Source: Caulobacter flavus (lineage in GTDB: Bacteria; Pseudomonadota; Alphaproteobacteria; Caulobacterales; Caulobacteraceae). Taken from it: a DNA stretch of 64,000 bases. Within the stretch, counting starts at the first letter, position 1. Every line of letters starts with the position of its first letter. Location of the stretch: contig NZ_CP026100.1 of assembly GCF_003722335.1 (NCBI RefSeq), forward strand, positions 3,756,001 through 3,820,000, read 5' to 3'. The position numbers and the translations under genes are program-made. Positions 59,090 through 60,900 of this stretch are shown here, in pieces. The notes beneath the pieces are model-generated. The model ran no database searches, had not been told where the DNA came from, and saw only the letters and a program-made list of their open reading frames with translations.

Positions 59090-59509
59090 ATGACCGAACG
59101 CACCTTCTCGATCCTGAAGCCCGACGCGACCCGCCGCAACATCACCGGCAAGATCAACGCCGTGATCGAGGAAGCCGGTCTGCGCATCGTCGCCCAGCGC
59201 CGCGTCCACCTGACCGAAGCTCAGGCCAAGAAGTTCTACGAAGTCCACGCCGAGCGCCCGTTCTACGGTGAACTCGTCGCCCAGATGACCGCCGAGCCGG
59301 TCGTCGTGCAGGTCCTGGAAGCCGAAGGCGCCGTGGCCAAGTACCGCGAAGTCATGGGCGCCACCAACCCGGACAACGCCGCCGAAGGCACCATCCGCAA
59401 GCTGTTCGCCCTGTCGATCGGCGAAAACTCGGTCCACGGTTCGGACAGCCTCGAGAACGCCGGCATCGAAATCGCCCAGTTCTTCACCGACGCCGACATC
59501 GTCGGCTAA
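59090..59509 (+). CDS. ndk: Ndk, nucleoside diphosphate kinase
   Basis: A 139-residue enzyme balancing NTP pools. [15 protein letters not shown] begins the fold and the phospho-histidine is His116 in [14 protein letters not shown]. Length and sequence are standard. The gene is monocistronic, followed 27 bases later by a strong terminator, and is divergent from the ABC-F gene with 89 bases between the starts. Confidence 0.98.
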
Positions 59510-59532
59510 GGCTTCCGGGCTTTAGAACTGCG

Positions 59533-59565
59533 AAAAGGCCGGCGGGGCGACCCGCCGGCCTTTTT
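59533..59565 (+). terminator. Rho-independent terminator after ndk
   Basis: GGCCGGCGGG and CCCGCCGGCC form a 10-bp stem around a GCGA loop, extended by AAAA/TTTT pairing, followed by a T run. Confidence 0.95.
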
Positions 59566-59617
59566 ATTTGGGGGCTCAGTCCGGCTCTGCCGGCTCCGCG
59601 CTCCCCTTTCTCGCTTT

Positions 59618-59743
59618 CCTCGCCCTTGTGGCGAGGACCCATGTCGACGCGCTCTCAGACATGGACGTTGAAGCTCGGCGGCCAGTGCTCGCCCTGAAGC
59701 ATCTGAGCAGGCCAACGCATGGATCCTCGCCACACGGGCGAGG
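59618..59743. repeat. MITE-like repeat, copy 1
   Basis: A 126-bp unit with 20-base terminal inverted repeats: CCTCGCCCTTGTGGCGAGGA at the left and TCCTCGCCACACGGGCGAGG at the right, one mismatch apart when one is reversed. Each terminus is itself palindromic. The inside shares short blocks (GCGCTCTCAG, TGAGCAGGC, GCATGG) with copy 2. Confidence 0.8.
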
Positions 59744-59781
59744 AAGGCAAAGAAGAGGAGCGTGGGCAACGGGGAGGGCGT

Positions 59782-60078
59782 CTACGCCAACCCCGGATAC
59801 AGATCATCCCAGAACGGGTTGGTCCGCTCGATTAGGTTGATCTTCCACTGGCGAGGCCATCGCTTCAGCGATTTCTCCTGCTGAAACGCGGTGGCCATAT
59901 CGTCGTGCGGCTCATACCAGACCAGCCGCTTGAGGCCGTACTTCTTCGTGAAACCTGGGATCAGGCCTTCGCGATGCTCCCAGGCGCGCCGGTTCAGATA
60001 GCCCGTCGCGCCGATGTAGAGCGTCTTCAGGCGCTCGTTGGCCATGATGTAGACGGCGATGTAGCGCTCTTCGCTCAT
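59782..60078 (-). CDS. GIY-YIG nuclease-domain protein
   Basis: A 98-residue protein consisting of one GIY-YIG domain of the UPF0213/YhbQ-like small type. The signature appears as VYIMANERLKTLYIGAT, with the catalytic Arg in NRRAWEHREG, a Tyr in FTKKYGLKRLVWYEPHDD and the metal-binding Glu in FQQEKSLKRW. Small solo GIY-YIG proteins are abundant in Caulobacter and relatives; their substrates are mostly unknown. The gene lies between two direct copies of a 126-bp repeat. Confidence 0.9.
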   Translation of the reverse strand: MSEERYIAVYIMANERLKTLYIGATGYLNRRAWEHREGLIPGFTKKYGLKRLVWYEPHDDMATAFQQEKSLKRWPRQWKINLIERTNPFWDDLYPGLA

Positions 60079-60156
60079 GCCGCTAGCGTGAGGCGCTGGT
60101 CGGAGAAAGCGCCAGCGGAAAAGCCGGTGTTTTTCAGCTTCCCCAATATCTGCCTT

Positions 60157-60283
60157 CCTCGCCCTTGCGGCGAGGATCCTGCCGGAGCGCTCTCAGAAGG
60201 CTGGTAACTCTAGCCTGGAGGCTGATGCTCATCCTGAACCAATTGAGCAGGCTGATGCATGGGTCCTCGCCACAGGGGCGAGG
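60157..60283. repeat. MITE-like repeat, copy 2
   Basis: A 127-bp unit with the same terminal inverted repeats as copy 1 (left end CCTCGCCCTTGCGGCGAGGA, right end TCCTCGCCACAGGGGCGAGG) and the same orientation. The two copies are similar at the ends and in short internal blocks, but diverged elsewhere. Confidence 0.8.
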
Positions 60284-60318
60284 AAAGCAGGGAGGGAAGG
60301 CGAGAGAAAAGGTTGGGC

Positions 60319-60899
60319 TCAAAGCCCCCGCACGAACGCCGCCAGCACCTGCGGATAGAGCCGGTGCTCTTCCCTCAGCACCCGCGCTGCCAGCGCGTGA
60401 TCGTCGTCGCCGGGCTCGATCGCCACGCGGGCCTGGCCCAGGATCGGGCCTTCGTCGACGCCGGCGGTGACGAGGTGAACCGTGCAGCCGGCCTCGGCCT
60501 CGCCCGCCGCGATGGCGCGGGCGTGGGTGTCCAGGCCCGGATACTTGGGCAGCAAGGACGGGTGGATGTTCAGCATCCGGCCTTCCCAGGCGTCGACCAG
60601 GAAGGGCGTCAGGATCCGCATGTAGCCGGCCAGGGCGACGACTTGGATCCCGCGCTCACGCAGGGCCGCGTCGACCGCGCGCTCATGAGCCTCGCGATCC
60701 TTGCCGAACGGCTTGCTCGGAACGCACAGCGCCTCGATGCCCGCCGCCTGGGCCGTGGCGAGACCGCCGGCGTCGGCCTTGTTGGCCAGCACCAGGGCGA
60801 TCTCGAACGGACAGGCCGGGTCCTGGGCGGCGCGGACCAGGGCTTCCATGTTGGAGCCCCGGCCCGAGATCAGGGCGGCGACCTTGGTCCTTGCAGTCA

Positions 60900-60900
<1 letters not shown>
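60319..60900 (-). CDS. purN: PurN, phosphoribosylglycinamide formyltransferase
   Basis: A 193-residue enzyme transferring a formyl group from 10-formyl-THF to GAR in purine synthesis. VAALISGRGSNMEALV is the phosphate-binding start, ALAGYMRILTPFLVDAW and NIHPSLLPKYPGLDTH carry the catalytic Asn and His, and VTAGVDEGPIL the catalytic Asp. ATG 60900 shares one base with the purM stop, so purM and purN are coupled. Only 26 bases separate its stop from a MITE-like repeat. Confidence 0.96.

Follow-up and report, generated by a model that had tools for sequence, protein, structure and literature searches.

A small solo GIY-YIG nuclease gene of Caulobacter flavus and the matching hairpin repeats beside it very probably work as a pair, because related enzymes in many bacteria adjoin their own version of the repeat. 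The association of nuclease and hairpins, the match of repeat tag to nuclease clade, the selected pairing of the stems, the dispersal of the repeats and their presence or absence between relatives are matters of observation. On the best reading of these sequences, a sequence-specific, probably single-strand-specific nuclease and its cognate REPs would constitute a mobile or formerly mobile unit.

The window, a stretch of 64,000 nucleotides (contig NZ_CP026100.1, positions 3,756,001 to 3,820,000), carries the gene on the minus strand at 59782..60078, as given by the ORF list and the PF01541 match, with its ATG at 60076-60078. The gene lies between an ORF at 59090..59509 (plus strand, from the ORF list), which we take from its sequence to be ndk, and a presumably purN-like gene at 60319..60900 (minus strand), which lies inside a longer ORF and for which the start point was chosen by us. 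Both neighbours served as anchors of the insertion site, and ndk also as a control gene. The encoded protein of 98 aa has one Pfam domain only, GIY-YIG (PF01541; 42.9 bits against a cut-off of 22.6), and is thus a small solo GIY-YIG protein. The V-Y, Y-x-G, R, E and N motif positions are conserved in its aligned homologs; V9, Y10, Y21, R31 and E68 are invariant and N87 nearly so (n=29 including the protein itself), and these are presumably the catalytic positions of the GIY-YIG fold. Its closest named orthologs, among the best 80 of 162 places, are those of Caulobacter radicis (95%) and C. endophyticus (93%). No NCBIfam family and no phage matched the protein, and the PDB returned 13 weak matches (E 0.24 or more), none named as a GIY-YIG protein. 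Additionally, the same genome has a second solo GIY-YIG gene (L001), approximately 52% identical to the first.

The original prediction had placed two same-orientation repeat copies around the gene, and both are present. REP dimer 1 (59613..59748 including tags) lies downstream of the gene and consists of a GCTT tag, a hairpin, an interior, a hairpin and a GCCT tag on the other strand; REP dimer 2 (60152..60288 including tags) lies upstream in the same orientation. Self-palindromic ends had also been proposed, correctly, but as part of a MITE-like repeat with plain 20-bp terminal inverted repeats, a description that has to be replaced: the copies each consist of two REP-like units set head to head, and in every unit a GCCT or GCTT tag is followed by a hairpin of 21 nt (TCCTCGCC stem of 8 bp, 5-nt loop of CTTGT or a variant, GGCGAGGA) and an inward CCC or TCC tail. 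Unit 1a (59617..59637, plus strand) reads TCCTCGCC-CTTGT-GGCGAGGA with its GCTT tag at 59613-59616, and unit 1b (59724..59744) reads TCCTCGCC-CGTGT-GGCGAGGA on the minus strand, where its GCCT tag occupies 59745-59748. Likewise, unit 2a (60156..60176, plus strand) reads TCCTCGCC-CTTGC-GGCGAGGA with a GCCT tag at 60152-60155, and unit 2b (60264..60284) reads TCCTCGCC-CCTGT-GGCGAGGA on the minus strand with a GCTT tag at 60285-60288 on that strand. The gaps between hairpin and gene are 37 and 77 bases. The left ends of the two dimers match at 89% over 28 nt; the interiors are diverged, as had been stated, with a match of 72% over 101 nt (59672-59772 against 60212-60312). A T run after the hairpin was absent, by eye, at all four hairpins in the window.

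The exact hairpin pattern is not a product of chance, because it matched 24 places in the single-contig genome of 5,659,202 bases (5.66 Mb) and its reversed-pattern control none. A GCCT-tag pattern open to other stems matched 22 places, 10 of them absent from the exact-stem list. Both patterns joined, the copy count proposed in the original prediction reveals a dispersed hairpin, with at least 34 in the own genome, 4 of which lie within 210 bases of this GIY-YIG gene. A CGTC-tag pattern had 0 matches in the same genome. All 15 own-genome sites inspected have hairpin pairs, mostly with an inner inverted repeat of the CTGCTCAGA...TCTGAGCAG type, and compensated stem changes are found among them, e.g. 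CCCTGGGC...GCCCAGGG. Dimers are present at many sites without the gene. At one site (L009, ~1370-1590; genome C1:1548750-1548975), a GCCT-type dimer lies within a CGTAAAA-type dimer, so that the families appear nested.

Homologs of the nuclease were picked by protein search first and their flanks examined afterwards, which leaves the association unbiased by the choice of this locus. Near is defined as within 210 bases of the gene and far as 400-610 bases. The family-wide set, from 249 genomes searched, consists of 30 loci and 80 further places among the matches listed, of which 90 belong by best match to the clade of this gene and 20 to its sister clade. After exclusion of loci with short flanks (14/90 in the clade, 4/39 in the sister clade), hairpins with an NTTGN loop were near the gene in 62 of 76 clade loci and far from it in 4 of 76, and any G+C-rich hairpin was near in 72/76 vs far in 19/76 (both among the matches listed). 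The NTTGN type is specific to this gene's clade, being near in 1/35 and far in 0/35 loci of the sister clade, where any G+C-rich hairpin was near in 29/35 vs far in 12/35. Most of the 14 clade loci (of 76) without an NTTGN-loop hairpin nearby have another CGTC- or TGTC-tagged palindrome, judged by eye or script label, and CGTCA is the tag beside most of this clade's homologs.

A detector of CGTC/TGTC-tagged units that permits larger loops was applied more widely, with shuffled sequences and ndk loci as controls. The named-genome set comprises the best 80 of 162 places. A match was present in 72 of 299 genomes of the phylum, and their best matches, with the own locus and two family loci set aside, gave the 27 phylum loci. 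Loci with short flanks were again excluded (9/80 named, 14/90 clade, 4/27 phylum, 1/30 ndk). Tagged units were near the gene in 61/71 loci of the named genomes and far in 12/71 (shuffled 3.1), and outside Caulobacterales in 54/60 vs 8/60 (shuffled 3.4), both within the best 80 of 162 places. The values were 20/23 vs 3/23 in the phylum-wide sample of best matches (shuffled 0.8) and 66/76 vs 10/76 in this clade among the matches listed (shuffled 4.6). At the ndk control they were 4/29 near and 2/29 far. Eight of the 10 clade loci missed by this detector are L048-L053, L060 and L067, which are tagged GCCT/GCTT. A loose detector with five tag types was set aside as too permissive; its near/far counts were 70/23 for the 76 clade loci (shuffled 18.0), 22/8 for 35 sister-clade loci, 22/8 for 31 more loci of the genus and 17/7 for 23 loci of the phylum sample. 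Since loci share ancestry, and many are orthologous at a single site or come several from the same genome (Mesorhizobium above all), the locus counts overstate independence. One locus (L288) has no repeat upstream, its contig ending within the gene. The original prediction had named as evidence against itself that the repeats be common at unrelated loci and no nearer to GIY-YIG genes than expected. The repeats are indeed dispersed at unrelated loci, but they lie closer to solo GIY-YIG genes than in the controls, as the clade and non-Caulobacterales counts attest, and the outcome goes against refutation.

Other nuclease groups have repeats of their own. The second gene of the own genome (L001, 1440-1840; genome C1:480993-481393) adjoins a different palindrome pair, CCGTAAAA-hairpin-CCCAGG, and its relatives have the tags GCTCA, CGTAAAA, TGTCA or others. 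Hairpins related to the CCGTAAAA-tagged ones were also seen beside own-genome sites such as L009 and L015. A third GIY-YIG group in the genus (L203, L206, L207, L219, L222) is flanked by palindromes of the GTCCTTCGA...TCAGGATGA type. Furthermore, hairpins like CGTCATTCCCGCGAA(A/G)GCGGGAATCCA, and longer ones with a CGTC tag, are found repeatedly in the phylum-wide sample, and a homolog of Neisseria gonorrhoeae, 52% identical, lies between CGTC hairpins of the CGTCATTCCCGCGAA(A/G)GCGGGAATCCA-like form. A like arrangement with own stems is found in Rhizobium sp., Shinella, Sinorhizobium, Azospirillum, Sphingobium and Aeromonas. With the gonococcal case counted, the flanking arrangement is present in 7 of the 10 records read, those of Photobacterium, Planktothrix and Rhizobium tumorigenes being less clear or different. 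Some genomes have several divergent nuclease copies with different repeat types.

The hairpin is real and its pairing is selected. Units in the clade flanks were chosen by tag and loop alone, with the stem ignored, and 173 of the 183 have 7 or 8 of 8 stem positions paired. Among distinct arm pairs, 41 of 51 reach 7-8/8 paired, vs a mean of 3.7 (maximum 9) after re-dealing the 3' arms, and the paired units have 35 different 5' arms. CCC or TCC tails are present in 155 of the 173 paired units, which form plus/minus pairs.

Moreover, nuclease clade and repeat tag change together. The nuclease tree comprises 136 proteins and 112 columns, with many forks open and single-site orthologs counted repeatedly; four loci were excluded, namely L022, which had no match, L024, with a broken frame, L046, which is the gene of L067 again, and L129, at 47 aa. 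A script assigned the tag labels, with 11 rows carrying an uncertain 'CGTC?' and 4 rows no label. On this tree the label changes 17 times, vs a mean of 49.9 for shuffled labels, and 0 of 200 shuffles were as low; the GCCT/GCTT label forms one supported six-row clade (L048-L053) plus L060/L067. Counts by genome are free of the repeated counting of single-site orthologs. Across the genus, 23 of 75 genomes have the GCCT pattern and 31 the CGTC pattern, 3 of them both (G046, G050, G062), with 0 for the reversed controls. The eight genomes with a gene at least 78% identical have 22, 30, 2, 50, 13, 68, 12 and 12 GCCT-pattern matches and 0 CGTC matches, and the other 67 have a mean of 1.6 GCCT matches (Mann-Whitney p 1.0e-7, kinship ignored). 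In 15 of these 67, all without a gene at least 78% identical, the GCCT pattern still matches 1-17 times; therefore, the repeats either persist after the gene is lost or are served by other enzymes. Three genomes with genes 65-71% identical and GCCT/GCTT-tagged neighbours (G013, G046, G050) are an exception, with 0, 1 and 2 GCCT matches and 2, 7 and 8 CGTC matches, perhaps owing to CCCT-type stems that the GCCT pattern cannot match.

The nuclease is patchily distributed, with a homolog at E <= 1e-30 in 38 of the 75 genomes of the genus. Both anchors are in range at 15 of 30 loci, and among these gene and repeats occupy the ndk-purN spacer in this genome and two close relatives; orthologs 78-87% identical occupy other chromosomal sites with repeats alongside. 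Eight relatives were examined at four repeat loci of the own genome. Loci A and D were readable in all eight; loci B and C could each be read in two relatives, which lack the dimer and have the spacer replaced. At two of the four sites a single relative of the eight has the dimer, and the same spacer in the other seven holds nothing, other repeats or a differently tagged dimer. The borders of occupied and empty sites are too diverged for a target-site duplication or an exact insertion boundary to be read. In some relatives (L113, L133, L221, L230, L247), the order of hairpin, gene and inverted hairpin has the look of a transposon with repeat ends. The mobile cassette originally proposed is supported, and 'mobile' is a reasonable word, because orthologs with repeats change site and dimers vary between close relatives. 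The comparison with relatives lacking the gene, proposed along with it, was less decisive, yielding other genes and no clean empty ndk-purN site; in one relative (G005) this spacer is 165 bases long with one degenerate hairpin. The ndk-purN spacer (window 59510-60320; L158-L166) is variable in general, and relatives have unrelated small genes or almost nothing there.

Several known repeat systems resemble this one. According to the survey by Di Nocera et al. 2013 (PMC3733652), CGTC REPs have an 8-9 bp stem, a 4-5 nt loop and an unpaired end tag (CGTC, TGTC or CCTC), with tails that are mostly CCA, and form head-to-head dimers; the survey lists C. crescentus as a CGTC-positive species and describes the repeats as apparently without a dedicated transposase. 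The window units have the same layout (8-bp stem, 5-nt loop, CCC/TCC tails, head-to-head dimers), and most clade homologs are flanked by CGTC-tagged units of this kind. However, the tag in the window and at L048-L053, L060 and L067 is GCCT/GCTT, not CGTC, TGTC or CCTC, and the family is therefore a variant and no strict member of the CGTC REPs; in a further difference, a solo nuclease is the consistent neighbour at homologous loci. We consider it likely that gene and hairpins form one functional pair, that is, a nuclease with a cognate REP-like family representing a GCCT/GCTT variant of the CGTC REP superfamily. REPtrons, in the same survey (PMC3733652), consist of a RAYT gene with adjoining REPs and dispersed copies. 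The likeness to a REPtron (GTAG repeats, RAYT of the Y1 HUH type) lies in a gene flanked by repeats with dispersed copies, but the enzyme here is GIY-YIG and not HUH, and the tag is GCCT/GCTT and not GTAG. No match to PF01797 (Y1_Tnp, RAYT-type) was found in the own genome at E <= 0.001, and a RAYT/Y1 transposase was rejected as the partner. The repeats share with MITEs a short length, inverted ends, dispersal and an intergenic location at the sites examined, but the window repeat ends are self-palindromic tagged units and no target-site duplication was seen at the diverged borders. A search of titles and abstracts, with most subscription papers beyond it, found no paper linking GIY-YIG proteins with REPs.

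The closest known system is that of the Ssn nucleases. A 2025 study in Nature Communications reportedly defined Ssn as site-specific single-stranded-DNA nucleases of the GIY-YIG superfamily, with the NTS repeat as target of the Neisseria enzyme and many homologs each having their own targets. The Neisseria Ssn is said to modulate natural transformation via a repeat present in hundreds of copies. Common features are a small solo GIY-YIG protein with a genome-repeated sequence, which is here a putative cognate. The gonococcal homolog (52% identity), putatively the Ssn of that study, lies amid CGTCATTCCCGC...GCGGGAAT hairpins. In contrast, the Caulobacter repeats have TCCTCGCC, TCCTGGGC and other stems, a CTTGT-type loop and a GCCT/GCTT tag, and their dimers lie on both sides of a gene whose site changes between species; cutting is a prediction here. 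In the likeliest rival explanation, the protein is a domesticated host nuclease and the palindromes are its address sites, which might for instance restrict or steer DNA uptake and recombination, and the pair is not selfish. We regard it as possible but unlikely. The reported effect of the Neisseria enzyme on natural transformation, the position of the gonococcal homolog amid such hairpins and the retention of key residues over large distances speak for it. However, patchiness within the genus, changing sites of orthologs and several divergent copies with different repeat types in some genomes fit a mobile unit better than a domesticated host protein.

It is improbable that an unrelated transposase moves the repeats, as MITEs or REPs, and that the GIY-YIG gene is a passenger. 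Such a history would suit the dimers at many gene-free sites and the repeats that persist in genomes without a close gene, but the own genome has no Y1_Tnp (the RAYT type being the one searched for), the tag follows the nuclease clade, and the association extends across Pseudomonadota despite different stems. We give hardly any credence to chance or site bias, i.e. ordinary intergenic hairpins of terminators or mRNA ends that share spaces with small genes: the ndk-purN interval is variable and holds other genes in relatives, and G+C-rich hairpins also occur in some far flanks, but crowding of this kind is rejected by the far-flank, shuffle and ndk controls, and the four window hairpins lack a following T run. 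CcrM-associated CIR repeats of Caulobacter exceed 100 bp, and a GANTC (CcrM) site is one of their defining features. Identity with CIR elements, to which the shared genus, the size and the strictly intergenic location given for C. crescentus in a review would point, is scarcely believable and was set aside, since no GANTC site occurs in either window copy or in 13 other own-genome stretches (15 in total), which sets the repeats apart from CIR by description.

For a nuclease paired with its own repeats, a mechanism may be proposed. The protein would recognise tag, hairpin and CC tail as single-stranded DNA, exposed during replication, repair or DNA uptake, and would nick the tagged hairpin; both cleavage and strand preference are predicted. 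Repair of the nick from other copies could keep the repeats homogeneous, and may occasionally furnish a new site with a repeat dimer or with gene and repeats together. Such putative spread would resemble that of RAYT transposases with GTAG REPs, but via a hydrolytic nuclease. GIY-YIG enzymes are, to our knowledge, not known to join DNA ends, and therefore movement would have to borrow host repair. The host might also benefit, e.g. through control of DNA uptake by analogy with Neisseria.

A wider proposal, for and against which we see the case as evenly balanced, is that the whole CGTC-type REP superfamily has its missing dedicated enzymes in the solo GIY-YIG nucleases. These would make up REPtrons of a second kind, present in Pseudomonadota and in single cases beyond, whose repeats are spread by a hydrolytic single-strand nuclease instead of a HUH transposase; specificity would have switched several times among CGTC, GCCT, GCTC, CGTA and TGTC tags, with the genome-wide repeats alongside. 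The 2013 survey (PMC3733652) left the enzyme of the CGTC repeats open, and the pairing observed here supplies a candidate for it in many bacteria. The function of a widespread class of bacterial repeats is thereby brought within reach of tests. Nuclease clades that differ in repeat tag, stem or loop provide natural matched pairs, so that recognition can be tested by oligonucleotide swaps. Should the enzymes prove to cleave single strands at selected sequences, their natural variety may be a source of laboratory tools. If Ssn is as reported, the kind of enzyme is known, and the novelty lies in the GCCT/GCTT variant, the link to CGTC REPs and a genome-wide difference in tag that parallels the nuclease.

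Some minor observations were made among distant homologs. On plasmid p1 of Planktothrix agardhii (L300, 18847-19131), a homolog has an MmeI-type restriction gene on one side and the DISARM gene drmA on the other, together with hairpin repeats of its own. Two metagenome-assembled genomes, of Candidatus Paceibacterota (L349) and Moranbacteria (L374), have homologs 53% identical, which may reflect recent transfer or mis-binning; in the former, a TGTCATCCTCGGGCTTGACCCGAGGAT hairpin lies just upstream of the homolog. NZ_CP119140.1 (Neisseria gonorrhoeae, 2.2 Mb) and NZ_AP026896.1 (Aeromonas caviae, 4.9 Mb) are labelled as plasmids but, to judge from their size, look like misfiled chromosomes. Mesorhizobium-type genomes (L244, L250, L251, L252, L254 and others) have several such nucleases each, and the CGTC-tagged repeats around some of them contain internal hairpins that are much longer.
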